From an uncultured Bacilli bacterium (GTDB taxonomy: Bacteria > Bacillota_I > Bacilli_A > RF39 > UBA660), in the NCBI GenBank assembly GCA_944372455.1, contig CALVZF010000008.1, forward strand, positions 1-43,618: a stretch of DNA of 43,618 nucleotides. The letters run 5' to 3'. Positions 2,358 to 30,788 of the stretch are shown piece by piece. The stretch's first letter is position 1. Each line of letters starts with the position of its first letter. The notes under the pieces were generated by a model, which saw nothing but the letters and a program-made list of their open reading frames with translations, made no database searches and was not told where the DNA came from. The translations under genes were made by a program, and so were the position numbers.

Positions 2358-4385
2358 CTATGGTGCATATGTTTTAATTTTTAAATCTTGCTGTTCAATT
2401 TTGAATATAATACTTCCATTTATATCAGTTCTGTATATTTTGCTATTTTTTAAAATTTCTAATACTTCTTTATTTGGATGTCCATATATATTATTTTTAT
2501 TTACTGATATAATTGAATATTTAGCATTTATTTTATCTACAAAATACTCACCAGTACTTGTTTTACTTCCATGATGTCCTATTTTTAAAATATCTATCTC
2601 ATTTAAATTATATTTTTCTATCAAATCTTTTTCTTTTTCTATTCCAGCATCTCCCATAAATAGAAATTTATAACTATTAAGGTTTACGTAAATTACATTT
2701 GAATTATCATTTTCGTTGTCATATTCTTTTGTATTTAAAAAGTATAATTTATATTTATCAATATTTAATTCCTTTATATCTTTGTAATAAGGAATTTTTT
2801 TCTTTTTTAAAACTTTTATAAGTTTTAACTCTAATTCATTATAATTTCCCTTATTAAATATAACTTGTTTAACTTTAAAATTATTAACTAAGTGTACTGC
2901 TTCTCCTATATGATCATAGTCACCATGTGTAGTAATTAAGTAATCTATTTTCTTAACCCCAATTGATTTTAAATATAAAGGTATATTACTTTTATAGTTT
3001 TGATTTTGAAAAATAGTTCCACCAGTATCAATAAGAATATTAGCTTTATTATGAGGGAGTGATATTAGAATACTTTCGCCCTTTACATCTAAAATTATTA
3101 CAGAACCATTTAAATTAAAAAATGAAATATTATTGTGAATTATTAAACAAATTAAAAATATAATTAAACTTTTATAATTAAGTTTTAAAATCTGTCTAAT
3201 GAGTAAATAATATAAAAATATAACTATTATATTGGGTCTAGCTAACGTAAAATTTAAATAAGTAATATCTTTCAAAAACAAAGATAATTTTTCCATTAAA
3301 CTTAAAAGAAAATATAAAATTGGATCCAGAAATGAAAAAATAAAGGTTAAAAAGCTTAATGGAAAAATTACAATCGTTATAAATGGAACAAAAATTAGAT
3401 TTATTACAATACTTAATAGATTAATATTAAAAAAATTATATATATTAATTGGTAGACTAGCTAAAAATGAAATAGTACTGATCAATATTACTTTAGTTAG
3501 TTTATTATTACATTTTTTAATTAAATGTTGATTTTGAATTAAGAAAAAAGTAATTGTAAATGAATATTGAAATCCTAAATCGTATATGTAGTAAGGATTT
3601 AAAAAAATCATTATAAAAAAAGTTACAGAAAGGATACTAAAATTATCGTATTTTAATTTTAAAATATCTTTAACTTGAATTAAAATAAAAAATAAAATAG
3701 CTCTAATTATTGAAGGAGAAATATCTAGAATAACAGCATAAAATAACAATACAACTATAGAAAAAACTTTAATTAGTGGCTTTGTAAGTTTTAATTTGTT
3801 AAAAATGAAAAAAAGAATAGTAGTAATTAAAGATACATGCATCCCAGAAAGTGCGAATAAATGCGTGACGCCATTACTTTGGTATGATTCTTTAACATTC
3901 TTGTCTATTGATGAATCATTACCCAAAATAAAGGTTTTAAGGTAAGTAGAACTTTGCATTTTATTACATCTATTAATTATTTTATTTTTTATAATTGTAA
4001 AAAAATTATTACTACTTTTTATTTTATCTATCTTATCTATTTTTAATATCCAATATATTTTTTTATTATTTAAATAATTTTTATAATTAAACAAATTAGG
4101 AATAGTGTTATTATTGGGTTTTGATAATTTACCACTAACTGTTATTGTATCTCCGATTTGTAAATTTATTTTTTCTTTATCTAAATAATATATACCTAAT
4201 ACTTTTTCTGGTCCTTTTAATAATATTGTTAACTTGCTATCTTTTAAATCAATATTTTCAACTATAAAATTAAAATGTTGTTCTCTACCACTATAAACTG
4301 AAATGTTAGGTTCTAAATTAGTAAAAGTAAGTGAATAGATTATGCCAATTAAAATTAATAATTTAAAAAAATAATTTGATTTCAT
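2358..4385 (-). CDS. comEC: ComEC/Rec2 DNA-uptake channel protein, 675 aa
   Basis: Forms the membrane channel that takes up single-stranded DNA during natural transformation. The order is: N-terminal membrane anchor and small OB-like (DUF4131-type) region in about residues 1-110; competence domain with many hydrophobic segments, starting with FALSGMHVSLI; then a C-terminal metallo-beta-lactamase-like domain with THGDYDHIG, FLFMGDAG and KIGHHGSKTST, which retains the metal-binding His/Asp pattern. Its length is slightly below the usual 700-780 residues, but all three parts are present. The start ATG overlaps the comEA stop (ATGA), so the two are translationally coupled. The reading frame is intact, which implies a functional uptake channel. 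Confidence 0.95.
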   Translation of the reverse strand: MKSNYFFKLLILIGIIYSLTFTNLEPNISVYSGREQHFNFIVENIDLKDSKLTILLKGPEKVLGIYYLDKEKINLQIGDTITVSGKLSKPNNNTIPNLFNYKNYLNNKKIYWILKIDKIDKIKSSNNFFTIIKNKIINRCNKMQSSTYLKTFILGNDSSIDKNVKESYQSNGVTHLFALSGMHVSLITTILFFIFNKLKLTKPLIKVFSIVVLLFYAVILDISPSIIRAILFFILIQVKDILKLKYDNFSILSVTFFIMIFLNPYYIYDLGFQYSFTITFFLIQNQHLIKKCNNKLTKVILISTISFLASLPINIYNFFNINLLSIVINLIFVPFITIVIFPLSFLTFIFSFLDPILYFLLSLMEKLSLFLKDITYLNFTLARPNIIVIFLYYLLIRQILKLNYKSLIIFLICLIIHNNISFFNLNGSVIILDVKGESILISLPHNKANILIDTGGTIFQNQNYKSNIPLYLKSIGVKKIDYLITTHGDYDHIGEAVHLVNNFKVKQVIFNKGNYNELELKLIKVLKKKKIPYYKDIKELNIDKYKLYFLNTKEYDNENDNSNVIYVNLNSYKFLFMGDAGIEKEKDLIEKYNLNEIDILKIGHHGSKTSTGEYFVDKINAKYSIISVNKNNIYGHPNKEVLEILKNSKIYRTDINGSIIFKIEQQDLKIKTYAP

Positions 4386-5068
4386 ACTGTGATTAGATCT
4401 TTTAATTTATCAAATGTGGAGTCTCCAATACCATTTATATTTTTTAATTCTTCAATAGTCTTAAATCCGTTATTTTGTTCTCTATATTCAATTATTTTTC
4501 TAGCTTTATCTTCTCCTATTCCAGGAAGAGTAACTAGTATATCTAAAGTTGCAGTATTTAAATTTATTTTGTTGGTTGTAGGTGTAGTTATGGAGGTATC
4601 GGTTTTATCTTCAGGTAAAGCTATGTATGCATCATTTTTAATATCATTACAAATTATTTCTTTATTAACGGTAACTTTATTTTCTTCCTTTAATTTTTTA
4701 ATTTCTGACTTACTATTTATATAAATTACCATCTCATCAGTTATTTTTTTACTTAAATTAACACAAGTAGTATCTGCATTTTTAGTAAGACCTCCTGCTA
4801 AAACTATTACATCATTTACTATTGAATTTTTAACTATATTATAAACTCCAGGATTTACAATTTCACCTTTTATATCAACATAAAAGGTAGTTTGTTCATC
4901 ATTGTCTTCTTCTTTATCTATAATTTCTTCATCCTCTTTTATTTCTTTAACAATTTTGGTATTACTTTCTTTTTTATTAATGAATATGCAAAATAAAACT
5001 ATAGAAACTACTAATACTATTATTAAACTTAGTATTATTTGCTTTTTATAGTTAAAAATTTCTTCCAT
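4382..5068 (-). CDS. comEA: ComEA competence DNA receptor, 228 aa
   Basis: A membrane-anchored receptor that binds double-stranded DNA outside the cell and passes it to ComEC. There is one N-terminal transmembrane segment (about residues 10-30), an acidic/Lys-rich stretch, an SLBB-type domain (FYVDIKGEIVNPGVYNI through the Lys-rich linker), a Thr/Pro linker, and a C-terminal double helix-hairpin-helix (INLNTATLDILVTLPGIGE ... ELKNINGIGDSTFDKLK), the family hallmark. A strong AAAGGAGG sits 10 nt before the ATG. It overlaps comEC by four bases. The next genes upstream on the same strand are a small membrane peptide and dusB. Confidence 0.95.
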   Translation of the reverse strand: MEEIFNYKKQIILSLIIVLVVSIVLFCIFINKKESNTKIVKEIKEDEEIIDKEEDNDEQTTFYVDIKGEIVNPGVYNIVKNSIVNDVIVLAGGLTKNADTTCVNLSKKITDEMVIYINSKSEIKKLKEENKVTVNKEIICNDIKNDAYIALPEDKTDTSITTPTTNKINLNTATLDILVTLPGIGEDKARKIIEYREQNNGFKTIEELKNINGIGDSTFDKLKDLITV

Positions 5069-6308: not shown

Positions 6309-6638
6309 TTATTTTTCTTCGTTTACTACTTGTGCTAAGGCACCAAAAGAAAGATCCATAGCCTTCTTAAAATATTTCTCTATTTTTTTAGAAACTGACA
6401 GTCCTACATTTGAAACAGTATTCCCATAATCTTTTTTAGTATTACCTACATAATCTTTTAAATCTATTTTTTTACCTGCTTTAACATCAGATTCAAATTC
6501 TTTTATTTGTTCTTTAGTAAGAGCTACTTTTTTGTATTCTTGATATTCATAATATCCATTAGCCTGTGATATAAATAAAGCAATAAATACAACAAATAAA
6601 AAAATCATAACATTTCTAAAAATTTTACTAGCTTTCAT
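6309..6638 (-). CDS. Small membrane protein after spoIIP, possibly YqxA-like, 109 aa
   Basis: There is one N-terminal membrane segment (about residues 8-26, rich in F, V, I) ending in QANGYYEYQEY, then a charged region and an amphipathic C-terminal helix. In B. subtilis spoIIP is followed by yqxA, a roughly 110-residue protein with an N-terminal hydrophobic segment. Position, size and the QAN motif fit, but I could not align the rest, so the name is tentative. The start is the ATG with AAGGA 8 nt upstream. It overlaps the spoIIP end by 11 bases, so the two are co-transcribed and probably expressed in the mother cell. Confidence 0.75.
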   Translation of the reverse strand: MKASKIFRNVMIFLFVVFIALFISQANGYYEYQEYKKVALTKEQIKEFESDVKAGKKIDLKDYVGNTKKDYGNTVSNVGLSVSKKIEKYFKKAMDLSFGALAQVVNEEK

Positions 6639-7647
6639 TTTTATCATTCCTTATATATTTTACTAATACATCTGATAAAACATCTACGCTATTTTTAACC
6701 TCCTCTATTGTATTTTCAAATCCCCCTACTTCTATTAATAATAAATTATTACTAATATCTTGATTATAAACTCCATTTACACTTTTTCCTTGTTTTTGTA
6801 ATATTCCTTTACTGATTCCTTTAACCTCACTATTTAACATTGTATCTAATTCTTTAGCAAATTTCATATTTTCTGTATAGTTAGGATTTTCTAGTCCAAT
6901 AACAAAATAAAATCTTGCATAACTTTTTTCTCCTACTTTAATTGTAGTTTTATCTTTAGAAACTGAATCTCTATGTATATCTAAAAAATATTTCAAACTT
7001 TTATTTTTACTTTTAGCATCATTTATAAGCATTCTGGTAACTTTATAAGCAGAACTTCCACTAAAGTTATTTGCTTTTAAAATTTCTGTCACATTAGTTT
7101 CTTCAACAATGCTTTTTATATTATTTTTATTTAAATTTTCTCTTATCATGTATGAAGTCATCATAACATTTGGTTTAATATTATATACTTCTAAATTATC
7201 CATACTATAATTTTCTAATTGATGAGAATTATAAATATATACAATTGGATCTTTAATTTCTTGTGGATTGGGATCTTCCACATATTGTGAAACTTTCTCA
7301 AGTTCTTCGATATTATCATAGTTATCTTGGTGTTCATTATCTATTTTGACAACGTTTGAAGCAATATTAGAATTAAGTGCAGTAACGGGATGTGTAATAT
7401 CAATATTTGAAAATAGTTTTACAATATCATTAATTAATTGACTAGAATTATATTGTTTTTTTGTTATATTATTTGAAGAATTTAAAAGTGTTTTAATAAA
7501 TGTTTCATTATCTATTGTAATTTTTTTATTTTTTAAATATGAAAATGTTAAATTTGAAAAAAGATATATGCATAATATTAAAATAAATATTTTAAGTATT
7601 TTTAATTTTCTTTTATTTAATTTTTTACTTTTAAATCTTTTTTTCAT
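6628..7647 (-). CDS. spoIIP: Stage II sporulation protein P, 339 aa
   Basis: A cell-wall amidase and endopeptidase that works with SpoIID and SpoIIM to thin septal peptidoglycan during engulfment. It has an N-terminal membrane anchor (about residues 15-40), a variable linker, then the SpoIIP domain with VYIYNSHQLENY, a conserved Thr/Val-Glu region (IVEETNVTEIL), SAYKVTRMLI, FLDIHRDSV, FYFVIGLENPNYTEN, GISKGILQKQG and GVYNQDISNNLLLIEVGG. The zinc-ligand His/Glu positions of the family appear kept. The start is the ATG preceded by AAAGGA at 9 nt. It is divergent from the Tyr/Pro-rich gene, with a SigE-like -10 just upstream. It is diagnostic of endospore formation. Confidence 0.93.
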   Translation of the reverse strand: MKKRFKSKKLNKRKLKILKIFILILCIYLFSNLTFSYLKNKKITIDNETFIKTLLNSSNNITKKQYNSSQLINDIVKLFSNIDITHPVTALNSNIASNVVKIDNEHQDNYDNIEELEKVSQYVEDPNPQEIKDPIVYIYNSHQLENYSMDNLEVYNIKPNVMMTSYMIRENLNKNNIKSIVEETNVTEILKANNFSGSSAYKVTRMLINDAKSKNKSLKYFLDIHRDSVSKDKTTIKVGEKSYARFYFVIGLENPNYTENMKFAKELDTMLNSEVKGISKGILQKQGKSVNGVYNQDISNNLLLIEVGGFENTIEEVKNSVDVLSDVLVKYIRNDKNES

Positions 7648-7666
7648 AATCACCATTCCTTTATTA

Positions 7667-20569: not shown

Positions 20570-21763
20570 TTATAAATATTTCACTCTCATAATATCATAT
20601 TTATTAACTTTAAAATCGCAGTTTATTTTTACAATCTGCCTTGGATGACGTGCAACATTTAGCTTACTATTATCTTCATCTAAAATTTGTTCTACTTTAA
20701 AAGTTATAGTATCTGTTTTAGGTCCAAATATCTCTATTTCATCTCCAACACTAAAATAATTTCTTTGTTCAATAGTTGCCATTTTTTTATCCGTATCGTA
20801 ATCCAGTACTATTCCTAAAAAATCTTGATTTGATAACTCTTGTCTTCCTAAATAGTATTGTTCTTCTACTCCAGGCTTTTTATCAAAAAATTGTGGAACA
20901 TTATCCCTGTTTGCAACTCTATTCAAAACTTTAATATAATTATTATCAAACTCTTTTTTATTTAAATAATCATCTATACATCTTCTATAAGTATTTACTA
21001 CAGTAGCAATATAGTATATTGATCTCATTCTACCTTCTATTTTTAAAGATTTAACTTTTAAATCAATTAAATCAGGAATAAACTTTATCATTGATAAATC
21101 TTTAGAACACATAGTAAATTTTACATCGTCAATAATTTCATTTTTATCACTATCAAATAAATCAAAATTCCATCTACAAATTTGGGAACATCCTCCCCTA
21201 TTAGAATCTCTATCAGTCATATAATTTGATAAAACACATCTACCAGATAATCCTACACACATCGCACCATGAATAAATACTTCAGTATCCATATGTGTTT
21301 TTTCAATAATATCTTTAATATTTTCTTTATTAGTTTCTCTAGCTAAAACAATTCTTTTAACCCCTAGATTTTGATAAAATTTTGCTGCTTCATAATTCAT
21401 ACAAGAAGCTTGAGTAGATAAGTGAATTTCTATTTCAGGGCAGATTTTTTTAATATACATAATACATCCTAAATCAGAAACTATTAGTGCATCTACTCCT
21501 ATATTAGATAATTTTAAAATATATTCTTTTAGTCCATTAAAGTTTTTATTATGAAAAATAATATTTACTGTAACATACACTTTTTTATTTAAATTATGAG
21601 CATATTCTACAGCTTCTTTTATTTCATCAATACTAAAATTAGTAGCATTAGCTCTTAGACTAAAATCTCTTCCACCAATATATACTGCATCTGCTCCATA
21701 CATTAATGCCCATTTAAGTCTTTCTAAATCTCCAGCAGGCGCTAATAACTCTATATTACTCAT
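20570..21763 (-). CDS. trhP2: U32 family tRNA hydroxylation protein TrhP2 (YrrO), 397 aa
   Basis: A U32 peptidase-family protein of the YrrO type, which acts with TrhP1 in hydroxylating wobble U34 of tRNA (ho5U), a prephenate-dependent pathway. It starts with IELLAPAGDLERLKWALMYGADAVYIGG, then has LIVSDLGCIMYI and STQASCMNY, and the U32 signature EVFIHGAMCVGLSGRCVLSNYM with conserved cysteines, plus RGGCSQICRW. The C-terminal beta domain is present (YLGRQELSNQDFLGIVL). The start overlaps the trhP1 stop by 8 bases. In B. subtilis yrrM-yrrN-yrrO are adjacent; here trmR is separated from this pair by the pilin block. Confidence 0.92.
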   Translation of the reverse strand: MSNIELLAPAGDLERLKWALMYGADAVYIGGRDFSLRANATNFSIDEIKEAVEYAHNLNKKVYVTVNIIFHNKNFNGLKEYILKLSNIGVDALIVSDLGCIMYIKKICPEIEIHLSTQASCMNYEAAKFYQNLGVKRIVLARETNKENIKDIIEKTHMDTEVFIHGAMCVGLSGRCVLSNYMTDRDSNRGGCSQICRWNFDLFDSDKNEIIDDVKFTMCSKDLSMIKFIPDLIDLKVKSLKIEGRMRSIYYIATVVNTYRRCIDDYLNKKEFDNNYIKVLNRVANRDNVPQFFDKKPGVEEQYYLGRQELSNQDFLGIVLDYDTDKKMATIEQRNYFSVGDEIEIFGPKTDTITFKVEQILDEDNSKLNVARHPRQIVKINCDFKVNKYDIMRVKYL

Positions 21764-22631
21764 TTACATCACTCTTTACTTTATAAATAGTTTCTTTATC
21801 TAAAAAACCTCTATATGAATTATTTAATTTATTAGACAAAATTTGTAATTTCTCATCACTTAAATTATCTTGGCTTGCCAAATCTAAAGCTTCTTTGAAT
21901 GTATTAACTACTAACTCTATATTGTCAATCATATAAGAATTTATAACTAAATAATCAATACTATTTTTAACACAAATATTTATACTATCTATAGCGTTTA
22001 AAATATTTCCGTTTACTATATGACTTCCATTATCATTTTCATAGATTGGATACAAAGTATCTTTATTTTTAATATAGTACGTTTTATTTTTTTTATCTTT
22101 ATTTATATAATTTAAATAATTAGATAACAAATTTCTGTTAGAACTAAAAATGTCATACATTCCATAATTAATCATAAATATTTTAGAATCAGTATTATTC
22201 TTAATTTCTATTATTTCATTTAAAGTAATATCAGGAGAAACTATAGCGCTTTTAACTCCTAATTTATTCCATTCATTAATAGTTATATAATTAGTAGTTG
22301 CATGAATATTTCCCCATATTAAATTAAGATTTAGTTTTAATCTATTATTTAATTGAAAAATAGAGATATCATCAAAAATAATTCCTGAAATATTTAATTT
22401 ACTTAATTCAATTAAAATATTACTAATTTTATCTAATTCATCATTATGTATTAATTTATTAAGGGATAAAAATATATTTTTATTTTCATATTTTTCTAAT
22501 ATTTCTTTTAACTCTTCTAAGTTTATTTCTAAAATATTTAATGAGTTAAAGTTTTTAAGTCCGATTATATAATTTTCTAGTTCTAAATTTAATTCATTTA
22601 GTTTATTTACCATTAGACAAAGTTTACTCAT
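21756..22631 (-). CDS. trhP1: U32-like protein TrhP1 (YrrN), divergent, 291 aa
   Basis: Assigned by position directly before trhP2 and by a U32-like pattern: an N-terminal barrel start, IWGNIHATTNYITINEWNKLG, IVSPDITLNEIIEI, MINYGMYDIFSSNR, then LYPIYENDNGSHIVNGNIL and IDYLVINSYMIDN, which match the second half of YrrN-type proteins. The cysteine-rich U32 signature is not evident, as in other YrrN proteins. It is more divergent than its neighbours. AGGAAGTG lies 5 nt before the ATG. It starts 11 bases after the last pilin gene, so it is likely transcribed together with the pilin block. Confidence 0.8.
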   Translation of the reverse strand: MSKLCLMVNKLNELNLELENYIIGLKNFNSLNILEINLEELKEILEKYENKNIFLSLNKLIHNDELDKISNILIELSKLNISGIIFDDISIFQLNNRLKLNLNLIWGNIHATTNYITINEWNKLGVKSAIVSPDITLNEIIEIKNNTDSKIFMINYGMYDIFSSNRNLLSNYLNYINKDKKNKTYYIKNKDTLYPIYENDNGSHIVNGNILNAIDSINICVKNSIDYLVINSYMIDNIELVVNTFKEALDLASQDNLSDEKLQILSNKLNNSYRGFLDKETIYKVKSDVNE

Positions 22632-22642
22632 GAAAACACTTC

Positions 22643-23149
22643 CTATACGTTTATATCAGTTATTTCTTCATTAATATCATTTACTGAATATATTTCAATG
22701 TTATGTTGTTCATTATTATAAGATAAAGGGATAGTAAGTTTCAAGATTTTTGTATCATTATCAGTAATTATTTTTACTTTTGGTTTATCAAGTTTTATTT
22801 CAAGATCATTTGCCACTGTTTTATCTCCATTATAAGATATATATTTTTCACCACTAGACACTACTAATTTTTTAGTTTCACCAGTATTTATATCGTAAGT
22901 TATTTCTAAATTTTGATTACTAGAATTCCATACTATATTTTTAATATTATATTTATAAAAATCTGGAGCAATTTTTTTATAAACAAGTGATTTAAACTTA
23001 TAAATTTCGTTATTGGCATATACTTGTGACATTTTCTTATTTAAAGAAACTACTATAGAAAACATATTAATTATTACTATAGAAGCAAGTGCAAAACTAA
23101 TTAATAATTCATATAACATATAACCTTTTTTATTTAAAATTTTTTTCAT
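22643..23149 (-). CDS. Prepilin-like protein F (minor pseudopilin), 168 aa
   Basis: It begins with a short basic leader and KKGYMLYELLISFALASIVIINMFSIVV: a class III-type signal with Gly at the cleavage site, Glu at +5 and a hydrophobic helix. The body is small and mostly beta (ITYDINTGETKKLVVSSGEKYISYNG). This fits a minor pseudopilin of a type IV pilus or ComG-like machine. GGTGGGAG precedes the ATG, which overlaps the stop of the previous pilin gene (ATGA). It is last of six prepilin-like genes. The specific subunit type is not identifiable. Confidence 0.85.
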   Translation of the reverse strand: MKKILNKKGYMLYELLISFALASIVIINMFSIVVSLNKKMSQVYANNEIYKFKSLVYKKIAPDFYKYNIKNIVWNSSNQNLEITYDINTGETKKLVVSSGEKYISYNGDKTVANDLEIKLDKPKVKIITDNDTKILKLTIPLSYNNEQHNIEIYSVNDINEEITDINV

Positions 23150-23628
23150 AATTCTCCCACCAAATCAATATATGCAAAATAATATTTGTCATTTCTTTTA
23201 AATTCAGCAATTAAGGTTCCAACTGAATCTTCATTAGTTTCAAAATCTTGCCAATTTAAGTAGTCTTTAAATTCTTCGTCAATACTAGTTTGATTTAATA
23301 ATTCTTTTTCTTTTGTAGGAATGGTTACAAAAATTTTATTTATACTTAATTCATTTAAAATTACAGCTGGAATAAAGGTTTCATCCAATACCATTAAATT
23401 TTCTTCATTTAAACTGTAAGTAATATCTCTTAAATAATTATTATTAATAATATAATTTTTTACAGTATTAAGTTTATATAAATCATCAATAACATTATAT
23501 CTTTCTTTACTTTCATAGTTTTTTATTGTTGATGAAGTAAAGGTATAAATACTTATTGAGAAAACAGCAATTACTGAAATTGCAACTATAGTTTCTACCA
23601 TCATAAATCCTTTATTATTTATTTTCAC
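23146..23628 (-). CDS. Prepilin-like protein E (GTG start), 160 aa
   Basis: NNKGFMMVETIVAISVIAVFSISIYTFTSS is a standard prepilin signal: basic leader, G/F cleavage site, Glu at +5 and a hydrophobic helix. The C-terminal part is short and soluble, with no recognised domain. The GTG start is chosen because GAGGTG lies 6 nt upstream; the ATG codons in frame are inside the signal and would destroy it. It couples to the next gene by a 4-base overlap and follows the large pilin D by 14 bases. Confidence 0.83.
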   Translation of the reverse strand: MKINNKGFMMVETIVAISVIAVFSISIYTFTSSTIKNYESKERYNVIDDLYKLNTVKNYIINNNYLRDITYSLNEENLMVLDETFIPAVILNELSINKIFVTIPTKEKELLNQTSIDEEFKDYLNWQDFETNEDSVGTLIAEFKRNDKYYFAYIDLVGEL

Positions 23629-23642
23629 ACGTTTCACCTCAC

Positions 23643-25472
23643 TTAAGGAATTAACACCGCTCTAAATCCGGAAGAAAAACTATTAGATCCATCTGTTGGA
23701 TTGCCTGTTAAAAAGATTCCAAATTGTTTAGAAACTGTGGTACCAGAATTACATGAACCTCCTCTTCTAAAAAATGGATAATCTTTAACGAAATAGTAAT
23801 ACGGATAATCGCCATACCATTTTTGTGTCTCATAGATGGCATCTCCTAATATTGTATTATCTTTTGTGACAGATGCTGTAAGAGATTTATAATTAATTTC
23901 ATATAAATCATAATATTTTAAATTTGGAAAATCATACCCTTCCGTATATTCTTCATATACCTCTCCATTCCAAAATGTATTTCCGTTAAATCCAGAATTG
24001 TTATACTTATTTCCTGAAGAATTATTTGTATTTAGCATAACAGTTTGTTCAATTCCTACCATGTCATATACTCCATATATTGTTCCTGTGGAACTTGCAC
24101 CAGTTCCTTTTAATAGTTCTTTTTGAGTGCCACCTGATGAAATTAAATTACCATCATAGGTATAAGAGCCATTTTCAATGCAAGTTATGCCTTCATCTCC
24201 GAAAGTTCCTGCACTTCTTCCTGTATATTTTTTATAACTATTGTTAAGGTAAACTTCTTTGTTTGCTCCTGTAAAGTTACTATTTCCCATTTTTCCATAT
24301 TTACTTTGACTTAAGTATGCGATTGCTCCCCATTCAATATTTTTCATTGAGTGAGTATCTACTTTGTTATTTAATCCATAAGTATCATTTCCAGAAAAAG
24401 TAACAGTACCTCCATTTTTAGCTAATGTTCCTCCTGCGAATTTTAGTGCCGTTTGAAATTGGGTTGCAATATTTTGTTTGCTTAGTATAGTAATATCAGG
24501 TTTAATTAAAGGAGTACTTGTGGTTCCACCAGTAATAAATTTACCTACCCAAAATCCAGTTAATTCTTTATCCCAGCCAGATTGATCATAAGGAGTTTCC
24601 TTATATACTTTACTTCCATCTCTAAATGCTGGATGTGTATAGTATGCTTCTTGTGCTACCCCATCATAATTTATATTAGCTCCTGTGTTTCTTGTATGGG
24701 TTTCAAATACTATATCTATTTCTGGAGGACTAGCTATTTCTACATTACTTCCAACGTTACTTGGTATTTTATATTTAAATCTTGGAATCCATACCCACAT
24801 TGTATTTATATCCTCCATTTTTATTTCGGTTAAAGCTTCTGCATTTTTATAAGTTTCTCTAGAAGATTTAGTTACAGTAACCGCATTAGCCCACCATTGA
24901 TTATCGTAATCATACCATTTTTCTGTATCACTAGCTTTTAACCATTTACCAGTTGCTTCATCATAAATTACTGGAAACATACCATCTGCTAATACTGGAA
25001 TATTCGCGCCACTATTATCTTTATATTTATCTTCGTTTTCTTGATTATAATTTTCTTCTTCTTTAATTTGTTCTTCAGTTAAACACATTGATAAATAATC
25101 TTTATTTTCTATATACAAGTAAGAAAAAATTCCTTCTGAATTTTTTTTTACTGCAATTCCACTTTCAGGATCAAATTCTTTTTTTGTGATTGGATTTTTA
25201 GGAATTTCATCTATAAAATTAAAGTTAAGTAAATCTTTTAGAGTTATTTTGTAACAAGTTTCTTTATCAATTATATTATTTACTAATGGTTTATGGTCAT
25301 TGACATATAATTTAGCATTTGCAATAAATTGATCTAGATAACTTTGGTATTGTTCTTTAGAATTTTTTCTAGTAAGACTCAAAATAGAAGTAGTAGCAAT
25401 GGTAACAATTAAAAGCATTATAGCAATACTAGCTAAAACTTCTATTAATGTAAATCCATTTTTATTTTTCAT
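23643..25472 (-). CDS. Very long prepilin-like protein D with FGE/C-type-lectin-like C-terminal part, 609 aa
   Basis: Residues 1-35 are a canonical prepilin signal (MKNKNGFTLIEVLASIAIML). Residues to about 125 form a pilin-like stem that is paralogous to pilin A. The remaining 450 or so residues are shared with protein C and contain MWVWIPRFKY, LTGFWVGKF, VDTHSMKNIEWGAIAYLSQS, KGTGASSTGTIYGVYDMVG, and a final RRGGSCN ... GFRAVLIP. The last two match the YDMxGN and RGGSWN ... GFR pattern of formylglycine-generating-enzyme-like (C-type lectin fold) domains. So this is probably a pilus-displayed binding domain, not an enzyme. GAGGTG lies 6 nt before the ATG. Ordinary pseudopilins are 100-250 residues. 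Confidence 0.88.
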   Translation of the reverse strand: MKNKNGFTLIEVLASIAIMLLIVTIATTSILSLTRKNSKEQYQSYLDQFIANAKLYVNDHKPLVNNIIDKETCYKITLKDLLNFNFIDEIPKNPITKKEFDPESGIAVKKNSEGIFSYLYIENKDYLSMCLTEEQIKEEENYNQENEDKYKDNSGANIPVLADGMFPVIYDEATGKWLKASDTEKWYDYDNQWWANAVTVTKSSRETYKNAEALTEIKMEDINTMWVWIPRFKYKIPSNVGSNVEIASPPEIDIVFETHTRNTGANINYDGVAQEAYYTHPAFRDGSKVYKETPYDQSGWDKELTGFWVGKFITGGTTSTPLIKPDITILSKQNIATQFQTALKFAGGTLAKNGGTVTFSGNDTYGLNNKVDTHSMKNIEWGAIAYLSQSKYGKMGNSNFTGANKEVYLNNSYKKYTGRSAGTFGDEGITCIENGSYTYDGNLISSGGTQKELLKGTGASSTGTIYGVYDMVGIEQTVMLNTNNSSGNKYNNSGFNGNTFWNGEVYEEYTEGYDFPNLKYYDLYEINYKSLTASVTKDNTILGDAIYETQKWYGDYPYYYFVKDYPFFRRGGSCNSGTTVSKQFGIFLTGNPTDGSNSFSSGFRAVLIP

Positions 25473-25482
25473 TTTTATCACC

Positions 25483-27246
25483 TCAATTATTAACTAGTAC
25501 AACTCTTAAATATGCAAAACTTGATACTGAATTTTTAAAGCTATAATTCAATGGATGTCCTGATCTATGTAAATAATAACCCATATCTCTAGGAGACTGA
25601 CGTGTAGAAATAATTTGAGCGTCAAATGATTCCCAAGTGGCATCTCCATATTTTTTATTATCAACATAATAATTATTATTATTTCTACTATCGTAAATAT
25701 ATTCATCGTAATATTTTTTATCCGGATAAGGATTACTCACAGAACCACTCCATGTCGGAATATCAATAGTTTCATATAGTTTACTTTTATATGCTATCAT
25801 TACTAAAGGACCACTTGATGTACTGTTAAATAAATCATAAACTCCATAAATGTTACTTGTTGAACTTGCACCAGTTCCTTTACCTAACTCTCCGGATGTA
25901 TAACAATTAGTAGCATATGTTGTGTTATTACATTTATATCCATTGTAACCATAATTACCATACTGAAAATTATCGCTTTCCCCCCCGCTACTCCTACCAG
26001 TTATGTGGGTAGTTTTACTATTATTAGTATAGATCTCTTCTAAATTAAATTTTTTGTTACCTTTAAACCCATAATCAGAATATGCTAAATATATTACTGC
26101 TCCCCATTCAGTGTTTTTAATTAAATGAGTATCTACACTTGTTGTAAATCCATAAACGTTTTGATCAGCTGTCATATTGTGTGCAGCATTAAAGTAGGTC
26201 TGAACAAAATTAGTACTATTTAGTGTATTAGGATTATTTGAAGTTATGGCTTCACAATCTGGTCTTATTAAAAAATTATTTATAGTGTGAGTGGTATTAT
26301 CATCATAAAAACCAGCATCAAATTTACTCATCCAAAAACCAGCTAATTCTTTATCTCCAAAGGTAAATGCTTCATTAATAACAAAAGAAGAATTTGTAGG
26401 ATTAGTTTGTTCTTTGTTTATAAATCTAATATCAAATTTTCCTAAGTTATCTTTACTTTCTCCACCTAAATATTTATACGCATTCTTTCTATATTCATAT
26501 CTTGGAATCCAGACCCACATACTGTTCATCATTTTCACATTAATTTTTTCTCCAAGCTTTTCTTTTTTCAGTTGTCCATATTCATCAAACCAATTATCAC
26601 GATATTCCTCTTTAACAGTAACTGCATTAGCCCATTGTTGCTTAGAATAGTTGTACCATCTTTTGGTAGTAGTTGCTATCCAAGTGTTTTCTTCTTCACT
26701 ATATACAACAGGAATCATGTAATCTCCTAACTCAGGATTATTTGCATTACTAGTATCATCTGGTACAATTGGAATATTAGGATCATTTAATAATATATTA
26801 TTAGTACTACCTTCATTAAGATCTTCATAGTATTCATCATCATTTTGTTTAAATTGCACAGTTTTACAATTTAAATCTTTTTCAGTATATTCATATTTGT
26901 AACTATTACCAGATTTTGATACTTTAATAACATAGTCATCTAGAACAACTTCTTTTTTGGTACTAGGATCTATGATCGGATTATCAATTAATCCTACTTC
27001 TATTAATTCATCTAAAGTAACACAAAGATTACCATTTTCAACGGCATCTATTGAAGTATCACTAAGTTCTTTATCTTCAACATATATTTGAGCACTATTT
27101 TCAAGGGAAGTTGCTAATTGAGTACTTATTTTATTTTTATTTTTGCTTAATATTGCACTTAATGATGGAAAAATAACAGCTGAGATTAATAATAATAATG
27201 CAATTACCGATAATAACTCTACGAGAGTAAATCCTTTTTTATTCAT
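25483..27246 (-). CDS. Very long prepilin-like protein C with FGE/C-type-lectin-like C-terminal part, 587 aa
   Basis: The prepilin signal is MNKKGFTLVELLSVIALLLL. A stem of about 130 residues is followed by a long C-terminal region that parallels protein D block by block: KRWYNYSKQQWANAVTV, MNSMWVWIPRYEY, LAGFWMSKF, VDTHLIKNTEWGAVIYLAYS, KGTGASSTSNIYGVYDLFN. Its last 45 residues have lost the RGGSWN motif and end in LRVVLVNN. Between shared blocks the two proteins differ strongly in loops, as expected of a diversified binding surface. The start has AGGTG 6 nt upstream, overlapping the previous stop codon (TAG). Confidence 0.87.
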   Translation of the reverse strand: MNKKGFTLVELLSVIALLLLISAVIFPSLSAILSKNKNKISTQLATSLENSAQIYVEDKELSDTSIDAVENGNLCVTLDELIEVGLIDNPIIDPSTKKEVVLDDYVIKVSKSGNSYKYEYTEKDLNCKTVQFKQNDDEYYEDLNEGSTNNILLNDPNIPIVPDDTSNANNPELGDYMIPVVYSEEENTWIATTTKRWYNYSKQQWANAVTVKEEYRDNWFDEYGQLKKEKLGEKINVKMMNSMWVWIPRYEYRKNAYKYLGGESKDNLGKFDIRFINKEQTNPTNSSFVINEAFTFGDKELAGFWMSKFDAGFYDDNTTHTINNFLIRPDCEAITSNNPNTLNSTNFVQTYFNAAHNMTADQNVYGFTTSVDTHLIKNTEWGAVIYLAYSDYGFKGNKKFNLEEIYTNNSKTTHITGRSSGGESDNFQYGNYGYNGYKCNNTTYATNCYTSGELGKGTGASSTSNIYGVYDLFNSTSSGPLVMIAYKSKLYETIDIPTWSGSVSNPYPDKKYYDEYIYDSRNNNNYYVDNKKYGDATWESFDAQIISTRQSPRDMGYYLHRSGHPLNYSFKNSVSSFAYLRVVLVNN

Positions 27247-27255
27247 TTTTATCAC

Positions 27256-28677
27256 CTATTCAGTTATTCCATTAATATTCAAAATTTTATTTTTAGCATC
27301 GTTAATAGCATTATCAATATTATTAGTGTCATAATAAGTAGGAGCTACTTTAAATGAATTATCCATTGTTTTTTTCAGTACTTCTTGTTTTTCTTCTTCA
27401 ATTTGAGGATCTATGTATACATAAATTAATGGTACATATTCATTTAGTGGACTATCAATTGATGTATTAAAATTAAAATTATATGTATCATCACCAGTAG
27501 TATTTGTTTTATTAATTTCTATGTAAGCAAAATAATATTTGTCTTTGTAATTATTTTGTTTTGGAGTTGGATTAAAATTTAAATTGATTTCTTTGTTTGA
27601 ATCATTAACTTTATATTTCCAAATAATAGAATAATCGTCATAATGACTGGTAATAAGTGTCCCTATTTTTCCATCAGCTGACTTAAATAATATATCATTT
27701 TCACAGTATACACTTGCACGTCCAGAATCTGTTACCCATCCTTTAGATTTAAACACGTCAATTAAATTGCTTCTCGTAAGACCATTGTTTGCTAATTCTT
27801 CGCTGCTAATCATTGCACAATTTTCTGGTTCACCATCATTTTTACAAGCATAATTACTTATATAACCTTCTTCACTTTGAAGTGTTGGCTGATTTTGAAA
27901 ATAACTGTAATATTCATTATGAGTTGTACAGCTTCCTTTTTGGTTATTTTTATTTGAATATGTTGCTATATCTCTATCTGTAAGATTATATGATCCGTCA
28001 TCATCTATCTTATAAGTTTCTACTTCTATATTACCACAGCAGGTACCTGTACAATAGCGGTCAGCATTTGTAAATATATCTGATGTCCACTGTCTATATG
28101 TAATTACTTTGAACGTGTTATCACTAGTAAATTTTAAACCAGCATAGTGATTTGAATAAAATCTTCCAACCTCTTTATCTAAATTAACATCATATATTGT
28201 AAAAAAATAATAATATGGAGATTCTTTAAAAGTTTGCTTAAAAACAAGATACTGATTATGATTAGCATAATAATCATTAACAGTAGTAGCAACTATATTA
28301 ACTTTTTTATAATCATAAGTTTCACTATATGTAGAATCACTTGAAAACATATTTATATTGGATTCAAGTGTAGATTCATTGTTTTGCTCTTTTAGTGCTT
28401 CTTCTATTTCGTGATCTAGATTTTCAATTTTTTCTCTATAAGTATCAGTATTATCGTTATCTGTGTATATAGTACTATACAAAAATATTTTTTCTGTGAA
28501 AGGATTTTCATAATTATCAATTTCATTAATGGTATTACTCGCACTCTTTGAAATATAATTATAACTGTTTTTTCCACTAATTAAAAAATATAATATATAA
28601 AATACCATCAAAATCATTACTATAACTAAAGCATACAAAGTACTAGAAATTATAAAACCATTTTTTTCTTTCTTCAT
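27256..28677 (-). CDS. Prepilin-like protein B, Cys-rich, lacking Glu5, 473 aa
   Basis: The N terminus (MKKEKNGFIISSTLYALVIV) has the basic leader, the G/F junction and the hydrophobic helix of a prepilin, but Ser replaces Glu at +5. That feature is typical of tip-located GspK-type subunits. The 420-residue extracytoplasmic part has several Cys pairs (RYCTGTCCGN, GSCTTH, NYACKNDGEPENCAM, VYCEND) and no domain I recognise. AGGTG precedes the ATG. It lies between pilin A and large pilin C with small gaps. Size, position and the missing Glu suggest, but do not prove, a tip initiator role. Confidence 0.78.
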   Translation of the reverse strand: MKKEKNGFIISSTLYALVIVMILMVFYILYFLISGKNSYNYISKSASNTINEIDNYENPFTEKIFLYSTIYTDNDNTDTYREKIENLDHEIEEALKEQNNESTLESNINMFSSDSTYSETYDYKKVNIVATTVNDYYANHNQYLVFKQTFKESPYYYFFTIYDVNLDKEVGRFYSNHYAGLKFTSDNTFKVITYRQWTSDIFTNADRYCTGTCCGNIEVETYKIDDDGSYNLTDRDIATYSNKNNQKGSCTTHNEYYSYFQNQPTLQSEEGYISNYACKNDGEPENCAMISSEELANNGLTRSNLIDVFKSKGWVTDSGRASVYCENDILFKSADGKIGTLITSHYDDYSIIWKYKVNDSNKEINLNFNPTPKQNNYKDKYYFAYIEINKTNTTGDDTYNFNFNTSIDSPLNEYVPLIYVYIDPQIEEEKQEVLKKTMDNSFKVAPTYYDTNNIDNAINDAKNKILNINGITE

Positions 28678-28700
28678 ATTAATCACCTATATATTATTAT

Positions 28701-29078
28701 TTATGATAAATTTTCTATATACTGATATTCTAAATTTTCATTTACTCTAGTGATTTTGACACCACTATTAGAACTAAACTTTTCATTGGTATTAGGATTT
28801 ATAGGAATATCATCTAAGTAATTTCCATCATATAACATTTTTAATGAAATATTATAATATCCGGTAGTGTTTATATTTTCAATTACAAGGTTTTTATTAT
28901 CTTTGGTATAATTTTTAGCTTCTGCAACAAATTGATTTATGTATTCATTATATTGTTTATTGGTATTCTTATTTTTAATACTTAGAATTGACGTAGTAAC
29001 AAGTGTAGTTATTATTAACATTATAGTAATAGTTGCTAAAAGTTCTATTAGAGTAAAGCCATTTTTGCTTATTTTCAT
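28701..29078 (-). CDS. Prepilin-like protein A, 125 aa
   Basis: KNGFTLIELLATITIMLIIT is a textbook prepilin signal (Gly cleavage site, Phe +1, Glu +5). The rest aligns with the stem of protein D: YINQFVAEAKNY against YLDQFIANAKLY, LDDIPINPNTNEKF against IDEIPKNPITKKEF, and an ending YQYIENLS against YLYIENKDYLS. It stops just where protein D continues into its display region. It may therefore be the major or a filler subunit. The start has GGTGGGA 5 nt upstream; 13 earlier in-frame codons have no ribosome binding site. It is first in the pilin block, behind its own -10 element. Confidence 0.87.
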   Translation of the reverse strand: MKISKNGFTLIELLATITIMLIITTLVTTSILSIKNKNTNKQYNEYINQFVAEAKNYTKDNKNLVIENINTTGYYNISLKMLYDGNYLDDIPINPNTNEKFSSNSGVKITRVNENLEYQYIENLS

Positions 29079-29107
29079 AATTATCCCACCGTTTCTACTA
29101 TATATAT

Positions 29108-29116
29108 AGTATAACA
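29108..29116 (-). promoter_or_regulatory. Extended -10 promoter for the pilin block
   Basis: TGTTATACT on the minus strand, 30 bases before the pilin A start and 17 bases past the trmR stop. A weak AT-rich hairpin with a T-rich tail (around 29117-29150) spans the trmR end. The pilin block may thus be transcribed separately from trmR. Confidence 0.55.
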
Positions 29117-29133
29117 TAAAATAAAAAGAATAA

Positions 29134-29715
29134 CTATATCTTTTTAGATATACTTATTCCGTCTCCTACATCATAAAAGGATGTTTTAAATTCTTTATTT
29201 TCTTTTAAAAAAATGATATATTTTTTTATTTTATTTACTAATTGAATAGTATTTTTATTTTTAGTGTTCTCAATATGTTCAACTAAACCATGAAATTTTA
29301 GATTATCAGATATGATTACTCCATTTGGATTTAAATTATTTTTAAATTTTTCAAAAAATTTAATATATTGTGCCTTAGCAGCATCTATAAAAATCATATC
29401 GTATTTTCTTTTATCTTCATATACAAAGGCATCTATATTATGTATTTCTATTCTATTTTCTAAGTTTAAAGTTTTAATGTTTTTAATAGCTTCATCATAT
29501 CTTAAAACATCTCTTTCAATAGTAGTTACCTTAATATCATTACAAATTAGAGCCATTTTAATTGCTGAATAACCAATCGCACTACCTATTTCTAAAATAT
29601 TTTTAATTTGATTATTTTTAATATAATTATTAATAAAATTTATTCCTTCTTTTTGGATTATTGGTATATTATTTTCTTTTGCATACTTTTCAATTATCTT
29701 TATTTGATCTACCAT
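29134..29715 (-). CDS. trmR: tRNA 5-hydroxyuridine methyltransferase TrmR (YrrM), 193 aa
   Basis: A SAM-dependent O-methyltransferase of the class I fold. It has IKNILEIGSAIGYSAIKMA (SAM motif I), VTTIERD, IEIHNIDAF, YDMIFIDAAKAQYIKFFEKF and GVIISDNLKFHG, as in YrrM. TrmR methylates 5-hydroxyuridine at tRNA position 34 to 5-methoxyuridine, the step after TrhP1/TrhP2. The start is ambiguous: an ATG at 29724 is 2 nt from AAAGGA, whereas the one used is 11 nt from it. It overlaps the mltG stop by 7 bases, as in the conserved yrrL-yrrM pair. Confidence 0.9.
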   Translation of the reverse strand: MVDQIKIIEKYAKENNIPIIQKEGINFINNYIKNNQIKNILEIGSAIGYSAIKMALICNDIKVTTIERDVLRYDEAIKNIKTLNLENRIEIHNIDAFVYEDKRKYDMIFIDAAKAQYIKFFEKFKNNLNPNGVIISDNLKFHGLVEHIENTKNKNTIQLVNKIKKYIIFLKENKEFKTSFYDVGDGISISKKI

Positions 29716-30788
29716 GTAAACCATAATCCTTTATCTTTTAATTCTTGAATTTTATTATCATGTTCAGTTTGAGTTTTAGTAAAATATACATCTCTATTTT
29801 TATCCGCCACAAAATATAAATAGTCATTATCATTAGGGTAAATTGCAGCTTCTATTGCATCTTTACTAGGATTAGATACTGGTCCGACTGGAAGTTTTCC
29901 TTTCATATTTGGACCTCTTGTATTGTAAGCATTATAAGTATTTATTTCTTTAGTGGTTAAATCTCTTTCACTCATATCTACTTTAAATGCATAATAAGTA
30001 GTTACATCACTACCTATATTCATATTTTTAGCTATTCTATTTTGGAAAACACCTATAATATTTTTTCTATCATCTTGATCTATTCCTTCTAATTCTGCAA
30101 TAGAAGCAAGGGTCATTAGTTCATGTATACTATATTTACTGTTTTCAATATCTTTTTTATATTTACTAAGTCTCATGTCTGTTTCGTCAAGCATTTTGCT
30201 TACAATATCTTGGATACTTACTTTTTTATCTTCAAAAGTATAGGTATTTGGATATAAGTAACCTTCTAATGGATAGTAAATATTCGGATTTATAATTTCT
30301 TCATCTAAAAACCAATATTTTTCAATTAAAGTTTCTATATATTCTTCATCAGTCATAGCTTTTAAAAATTCGTCTTTAGTATTATCTGTGTTTTCTTCAA
30401 TTACAGAAGCTATTTGTCTAATATTTAATCCTTCTTTAAAAAGTACAGTAATGGCATTAGGATTAACTGTGTCCCCTTTCCTAATTTTATTTACTATTTC
30501 TTCCAAATTCATATTTTGCTTTAATTCAAAGTATCCACCTTTTAAATCTTTTATATCATTTAATTTTAGATATACTTTAAATATTATTTCACTTCTAATT
30601 AATTTTTTTTCTTTTAAAATTTGGGAAATTTCAGAAGAAGTATTGCCTTCTTTTATTTCAACTAAAATTACTTTATCATTTTTACTATCAACACTACCAA
30701 TTCCATATTTATATAAAAGACTTAGAGAAATTATTAAAGTTAGAAAAAATGCAACCAATAACAATGCTATATTTCTTAATTTTCTCAT
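29709..30788 (-). CDS. mltG: Endolytic transglycosylase MltG (YrrL), 359 aa
   Basis: Cuts nascent peptidoglycan strands at the membrane surface. There is one N-terminal membrane segment (about residues 8-28), a LysM-like region (VEIKEGNTSSEISQIL, then GGYFELKQNMNLEEIVNKI), and the YceG domain with EGYLYPNTYTF, LMTLASIAELEG holding the catalytic Glu, VFQNRIAKNMNIGSDVTTYYA and NTYNAYNTRGP ... GPVSNPSKDAIEAA. The length fits. The ATG has no evident Shine-Dalgarno, and a terminator-like hairpin lies just upstream, so expression may be attenuated relative to yrzB. Confidence 0.94.
   Translation of the reverse strand: MRKLRNIALLLVAFFLTLIISLSLLYKYGIGSVDSKNDKVILVEIKEGNTSSEISQILKEKKLIRSEIIFKVYLKLNDIKDLKGGYFELKQNMNLEEIVNKIRKGDTVNPNAITVLFKEGLNIRQIASVIEENTDNTKDEFLKAMTDEEYIETLIEKYWFLDEEIINPNIYYPLEGYLYPNTYTFEDKKVSIQDIVSKMLDETDMRLSKYKKDIENSKYSIHELMTLASIAELEGIDQDDRKNIIGVFQNRIAKNMNIGSDVTTYYAFKVDMSERDLTTKEINTYNAYNTRGPNMKGKLPVGPVSNPSKDAIEAAIYPNDNDYLYFVADKNRDVYFTKTQTEHDNKIQELKDKGLWFTW

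Follow-up and report, generated by a model that had tools for sequence, protein, structure and literature searches.

What does an unbroken row of six prepilin-type genes do inside a tRNA modification locus, and which machine would its products serve? The question is raised by the window analyzed here, a stretch of 43,618 nucleotides that is contig 8 (CALVZF010000008.1) of the 49 contigs in the genome of an uncultured Bacilli bacterium (GCA_944372455.1, here G000; 1.146 Mb, 94.65% complete). At 22643-29117 on its minus strand, six open reading frames (ORFs), which we named pA to pF in transcription order, stand in a row between a trmR-like gene and two U32 genes. The best reading that we can offer, and one that we think likely, is that its genes form a single operon for minor pilins and tip adhesins. 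Its tRNA-modification neighborhood looks accidental rather than functional. For the U32 pair we use the names yrrN and yrrO in place of trhP1 and trhP2, labels that the original prediction for this DNA had swapped, because Sakai et al. (2019; PMC6599085) reserve TrhP1 for the U32 protein that has the C-terminal motif (yrrO) and TrhP2 for the one that lacks it (yrrN). The earlier trhP1 (21756-22631) is yrrN/TrhP2, and the earlier trhP2 (20570-21763) is yrrO/TrhP1. The block and its flanks are as follows.

29134..29724, minus strand: trmR-like O-methyltransferase, upstream flank (Methyltransf_3, 76.5 bits; cut-off, 22)
28701..29078, minus strand: pA, headless prepilin of 125 amino acids (aa) with an N_methyl match; its listed ORF starts at 29117
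27256..28677, minus strand: pB, large prepilin-like protein that lacks Glu5 and has a head of its own kind; a putative K-like cap
25483..27246, minus strand: pC, modular pilin with an N-terminal pilin module and a putative formylglycine-enzyme (FGE)/C-type-lectin-like head (N_methyl match; head-family matches)
23643..25472, minus strand: pD, modular pilin whose head is of the pC type (N_methyl match; alignments)
23146..23637, minus strand: pE, putative I-like minor pilin (orthologue beside PilB in the related genome G044; paralogue in an operon on contig 22)
22643..23149, minus strand: pF, putative J-like minor pilin (EpsJ-like model; orthologue between leuS and PilC in G044)
21756..22631, minus strand: yrrN-like U32 protein, TrhP2 of Sakai et al. 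(Peptidase_U32, 88.8 bits)
20570..21763, minus strand: yrrO-like U32 protein with U32_C, TrhP1 of Sakai et al. (Peptidase_U32, 271.9 bits; U32_C, 106.5 bits)

The genes are as closely packed as originally described. From trmR to yrrN the spacings are 16, 14, 0, 1, 5, −4, and 11 nt, the last agreeing with the 11 bases claimed between the block and the first U32 gene, and the claim that the block is inserted into a tRNA U34 locus likewise held, with a Methyltransf_3 gene upstream and two U32 genes downstream. Internal ATGs are the likely starts of pA (29078), pB (28677), pC (27246), and pD (25472). A class III prepilin signal followed by a hydrophobic helix was read in all six proteins. Three of them exceed the Pfam N_methyl cut-off of 21.2 bits (pA, 22.0; pC, 24.5; pD, 29.8), and pE, at 12.6 bits, falls below it; the N-termini of pB and pF read KNGF/KKGY and run on into a hydrophobic stretch.

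The proteins differ mainly in what follows this N-terminal region. pA corresponds to the pilin module of pD minus its head (local alignment Z of 36 over the full length and 23 without the N-terminal helix), and pC and pD share a head of ~440 aa. The start of pB after its lysines reads GFIISS, so that it lacks Glu5, as do a 62-aa gene product on contig 22 and 77-aa and 519-aa products in G044; K subunits have been reported without this residue in PMC9934059. The N-terminal segment of pB recurs in four other genomes (5 of 98, counting its own), whereas its head had no homologue among the 98 family genomes searched. In G044 the head family is found fused to a pB-type N-terminus.

Modelled alone from its single sequence, pF forms a long helix and nine strands (predicted local distance difference test [pLDDT], 66). 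The first match of this model in VIA-align is EpsJ of the EpsI-EpsJ complex (2ret_B; Z of 6.9, root mean square deviation [rmsd] of 3.5, 117 residues), followed by an XcpGHIJK model chain (Z of 6.5, rmsd of 4.9, 148 residues), a Thermus type-IV-like pilin (Z of 5.4, rmsd of 4.3, 121 residues), and, in sixth place, Streptococcus sanguinis PilB (Z of 4.5); sequence identity in the structural matches is only 8 to 9%. Both pE and pF also have paralogues in the same genome, as I and J of a further tip operon on contig 22 (L042:4440-7564, beside mraZ/rsmH), which encodes a head-pilin of 616 aa, I (214 aa), J (176 aa), and K (62 aa). pE is homologous to the gene that precedes J in this operon and in that of G044. 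Orthologues of the contig 22 operon lie in G044 (between trpS and rnhB, by our own reading), G023 (before der), and G163. As for how common J subunits are, the count from our profile A4, which matched 183 of 193 genomes, was rejected as a J count because many of its matches span only the N-terminal helix common to all prepilins.

The window is without an ATPase, platform protein, or prepilin peptidase, as the original prediction had noted, and a search of the rest of the genome found all three. A GspE/PilB-class ATPase is encoded on contig 27 (NCBIfam GspE, 485.7 bits; PilB, 463.9 bits; ComGA, 273.8 bits, with a cut-off of 300), and a GspF/PilC platform protein and a prepilin peptidase (PilD) are encoded on contig 2, beside a Tad-type cluster; the platform protein scores 148.2 bits against the ComG model (cut-off, 240) and higher against the GspF model. 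Two further T2SSE places (C2 and C6, where C and a number denote a contig of G000) fall within Tad-like clusters, as judged from their neighbors. The one on contig 6 (L114, 2305-7290) belongs to a Tad-like cluster distinct from that on contig 2, with an ATPase of its own.

The connection between the block and this machine comes from comparison with G044, a member of the same genus. There, the best-matching homologue of pE (35%, 9e-15) has PilB on one side and a 321-aa membrane protein on the other, and that of pF (32%, 1e-20) is flanked by leuS and PilC-PilD. The flanks of these sites are orthologous in the two genomes (PilB, 80%; the 320/321-aa protein, 77%; leuS, 52%; PilC, 66%), and in G000 neither pE nor pF is present at the PilB|320-aa or leuS|PilC site, where the gaps are 111 and 28 nt. 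Without the N-terminal helix, pF aligns with machine-side and relatives' copies at Z values of 11.3 (G044), 11.7, and 7.6, versus 6.2 for the contig 22 J, and pE aligns with the G044 copy at 7.5, versus 3.5 for the contig 22 I. Trees agree with these alignments (support of 82/84 for the pE grouping and 73/77 for the fork holding the window pF). Because the orthologues of pE and pF stand at machine sites in G044 and are missing from those sites in G000, the block is tied to that machine, and by these comparisons it would bring together, at the trhP site, I and J subunits whose genes lie at the machine loci in a sister species. Homologues of pF are also found in G023, where one adjoins the same membrane gene as beside PilB, after a head-protein fragment at a contig end, and in G098, after clpC. 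Not all pilin genes move: both G000 and G044 have one pilin gene beside cdsA and another flanked by rsmD-like and nfo-like genes.

The heads of pC and pD belong to a larger family. A search with pC finds the head repeatedly across the genome, and reading of the contigs gave 17 genes, of which nine are truncated where their contigs end (the copy on C21 was seen by this reading and missed by the motif regular expression). A prepilin start with Glu5 is present in 3 of the 17, pC, pD, and the 616-aa gene of contig 22; the others have signal- or anchor-type N-termini, several with dockerin-like inserts. PF03781 (FGE-sulfatase) matches weakly in 4 of 19 head members (best E value, 0.0042), with no match in pC or pD themselves; in the C27 copy, the match aligns residues 285 to 310 with profile positions 174 to 199, the YGVYDM..G region. 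The motifs FW..KFE, NTEWGA, YGVYDM, and RGG..GFR are colinear among the heads, in an order shared with similar motifs of FGE and C-type-lectin-fold variable proteins. The head thus weakly resembles FGE/C-type-lectin domains in its primary sequence. Three further assignments were tried and rejected: a diversity-generating retroelement target (no reverse transcriptase, PF00078, matched in the 94.65% complete genome), a phage or plasmid origin (no match in viral contigs, phages, or plasmids), and a known structure (best profile matches at E values of 0.6 to 1, not usable).

Ends of C13, C27, C31, C39, C21, C17, C36, C37, and C20 fall inside head genes, at or near the shared 5′ module. The N-terminal modules were therefore probably collapsed in assembly, and the head family may be larger than 17 genes. 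A recurrent promoter-like element, TTGACC-G(6-8)-(T)AATATG[AG]TAT, with a G-run between the −35 and the extended −10, lies ahead of surface head-family genes, one prepilin gene, and a few others (window:23, minus strand, at the contig start; L038:5836 and 13350; L042:131; L043:4179; L045:50-75 and 3207; L046:8180; L048:99; L114:10794); in G044, what was seen is just a G7 run ahead of a head gene (L131:342). These elements are candidate slipped-strand phase-variable promoters. Separately, the coding strand of pC itself contains a G7 run (25986-25980, within a window of 24% GC), a possible frame-slippage site.

How the block came to be where it is can be read in part from its leader. The window was compared with 40 trhP loci, taken from a larger number ranked by match and size of contig; the named relatives found by yrrO are metagenome assemblies titled “Bacilli bacterium” or “Firmicutes bacterium,” one of them from goat rectum. 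Of 45 neighborhood loci (44 plus L139; L054 and L057 are one contig), 28 remained after removal of the 17 without trmR and yrrN on one strand. In 23 of these 28 the two genes are adjacent (gap of −26 to 67), and in 5 they are parted by 1.3 to 7.2 kb of other genes. The block was missing from this site in all relatives examined, and the site is empty in the close relatives L053 and L058. Two promoter features are relevant.

29116-29108, minus strand: extended −10 TGTTATACT, read as the putative inherited promoter of the yrrN-yrrO pair (leader match to L053)
22715..22744, minus strand: candidate promoter TTGAAA-18-TATAAT inside pF, ~84 nt before yrrN (11 of 12 consensus matches; consensus only)

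The extended −10 that the original prediction had assigned to the block is indeed present, but its ownership is a different matter. Among the 23 adjacent loci, TGGTATAAT occurs in the trmR-yrrN gap only in L053 and L058, and the window leader, taken from the stop codon of trmR up to and including the −10, agrees with that of L053 at 24 of 27 bases (score of 39; 1,000 shuffles gave a mean of 17.2 and a maximum of 35). The region from the ribosome-binding site to the ATG also resembles that of L053 by eye. Judged by this leader, the extended −10 most likely marks the old trhP promoter, not one of the block's own. The block would have entered just after the trhP leader, leaving the promoter before pA, and yrrN would have gained a new ribosome-binding site. 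With the trhP promoter upstream of it and the trhP genes downstream, the block probably owes its transcription to that promoter, and the link to tRNA modification is positional; cotranscription with the trhP genes in this positional sense is possible. For the promoter inside pF, ~0.013 such sites are expected per 150 nt (Markov shuffles), and going by its consensus it may serve yrrN. Single consensus promoter sites mean little, because the promoter scan found 67 sites versus 80.6 expected.

Taken together, these results suggest that the block serves the cell's type IV pilus machine, with PilB from contig 27 and PilC and PilD from contig 2. pE (I-like) and pF (J-like) would form an initiating tip complex with the Glu5-less pB as a K-like cap; the large FGE/C-type-lectin-like heads would sit on the pilin stalks of pC and pD, with pA as a headless copy of the pD stalk. 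PilD would cut the prepilins, and PilB and PilC would push the tip complex outward, and the heads so displayed would bind glycans or proteins belonging to the host or to other gut bacteria. The set would have been gathered in, or moved to, the yrrN leader in this lineage, downstream of the old trhP promoter and ahead of the trhP genes themselves. The subunit roles, tip location, ligand binding, and transcription of the block are all inferred.

The design matches, by analogy, the modular pilins and HIJK-type tip complexes described in PMC8179133 and PMC9934059. Like S. sanguinis PilA-PilB-PilC as presented there, the block would be a monoderm minor-pilin operon with small stalks, bulky nonpilin heads, and one Glu5-less subunit; unlike that system, whose heads are von Willebrand A (vWA) and ConA-like lectin domains, it has two FGE/C-type-lectin-like heads and one unique head, a separate J-like subunit, unlinked machinery, and a second tip operon in the genome. 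Like GspH-I-J-K/XcpUVWX, it would have an I-like, a J-like, and a K-like member without Glu5 encoded together, with pF modelled as EpsJ-like, but it adds headed pilins, and the structural matches are of low identity. To our knowledge a secretin is not expected in this lineage, and no search was made for one. As in other modular pilins, the head also occurs outside pilins, and as in FGE-sulfatase/C-type-lectin-fold domains, including retroelement variable proteins, it has colinear short motifs; it differs from the latter in lacking an accompanying reverse transcriptase and, we infer, in having no catalytic role. We found no publication on such pilins in this lineage, nor any on prepilins with this head, the 264 architectures in the supplement of PMC8179133 lying outside the comparison.

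Several observations weigh against this account. pB and pF have no Pfam N_methyl match. The top Z of 6.9 for the pF model is below the VIA-align caution level of 8, and plain Foldseek with the same model gave no match at an E value of ≤0.001. The tree support that places pE and pF with the machine-side copies is only moderate. FGE-sulfatase matches are below the Pfam cut-off where scores are shown, and the AlphaFold model of pD has a pLDDT of 33, so that the fold of the head is a putative one. The window leader does not clearly match that of L058 (score of 21 versus a shuffle mean of 17.3 and a standard deviation of 3.1), and the candidate promoter inside pF would uncouple yrrN.

The original prediction had offered a diverged competence pseudopilus as one identity for the block, and of the other explanations this survives best. 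The block would then consist of minor pilins of a competence pilus diverged from ComGC-GG, with the heads as accessories and a main role in transformation together with two proteins encoded in the same window, which the original prediction does not mention.

4382..5068, minus strand: ComEA, a possible second use of the pilus (TIGR00426, 66.7 bits; cut-off, 53.1)
2358..4385, minus strand: ComEC (TIGR00361, 249.6 bits; cut-off, 190)

ComEC is present in 10 of 10 family genomes tested, pA, pC, pD, and pE have weak ComGD/ComGE/ComGF matches, ComGC is the best match of two major pilins, and none of the four T2SSE places of the genome was recognized as a separate PilT. On the other hand, no ComG model for pilins, ATPase, or platform reached its curated cut-off, with GspE/PilB and GspF scoring higher for the ATPase and platform; the genes are dispersed, with no comG operon; there are several major pilins; and large heads suit adhesion better. 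We therefore regard the competence explanation as doubtful, the presence of ComEA and ComEC leaving a role of the pilus in DNA uptake possible.

That the block is a foreign island gained by transfer seems improbable. It is missing from the site in the relatives, and the pB head is without a homologue in the family genomes, but the GC content of the block (0.205 to 0.296) is like that of its flanks (0.187 to 0.312), it contains no integrase or transposase ORF, and genomes of the same genus and family have homologues of pE and pF at their machine loci.

The prediction that pilus expression and tRNA hydroxylation are coupled depends on whether pilin genes are drawn to this neighborhood. A modular head-pilin lies directly after yrrO in L053 and L058, two pilins lie directly before yrrN in L064, and a 642-aa prepilin is encoded on the opposite strand between trmR and yrrN in L093. 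Adjacency of pilins to the trhP pair (the window, L053, L058, and L064) is slightly above expectation, but three of these are close relatives. By the strict motif, pilin and head genes make up 9 of 755 genes across the 44 neighborhood loci, about the rate predicted from the 5 to 34 pilin genes per genome: 11 relatives have 5 to 34 N_methyl places each at an E value of ≤1, and the window's genome has 10 above the cut-off and 12 at an E value of ≤10. Conserved coupling of the block with tRNA modification is thus unlikely, and the claim fell as one of conserved function because relatives carry pilins at unrelated sites and trmR and yrrN are split by other genes in 5 of 28 loci, the outcome that the original prediction had itself named as refuting it. 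The stronger form, in which pilin and tRNA U34 genes are cotranscribed as adhesion and decoding capacity are coregulated, is very improbable, for while it could draw on the 11 nt between pF and yrrN, the shared upstream promoter, and the pilins beside yrrO or yrrN, it is opposed by that genome-wide rate, by pF homologues elsewhere in three relatives, by the split loci, and by the possible promoter within pF.

We return to the preferred reading, a tip operon for a machine encoded elsewhere. The original suggestion of a new pilus type gives way to minor pilins and tip adhesins for this PilB-PilC-PilD machine. Tentatively, it is also possible that a single pilus machine is supplied with interchangeable tips: two tip operons (in the window and on contig 22) for one PilB-PilC-PilD set and a head family on pilus stalks and other surface anchors, several behind G-run promoters, would give a genome of 1.15 Mb a repertoire of adhesins that can be switched, with tip genes moving among housekeeping intergenic sites between species. 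If so, uncultured small-genome gut Bacilli would invest heavily in modular type IV pilins, an adhesion repertoire overlooked because domain databases do not recognize the heads. The dispersed, relocating tip genes would permit a comparison of machine-bound minor pilins (pE/pF) with exchangeable heads, and the locus would show that a gene block lodged between a conserved tRNA-modification pair and its promoter need not share the function of that pair.

Two minor observations may be added. In G026, 31 prepilin matches were found, several in frames of 900 to 1,637 aa, that is, very large prepilin-type proteins in genomes of ~1 Mb. Within the window, at 6628-7656, this reduced genome encodes a SpoIIP-family protein.

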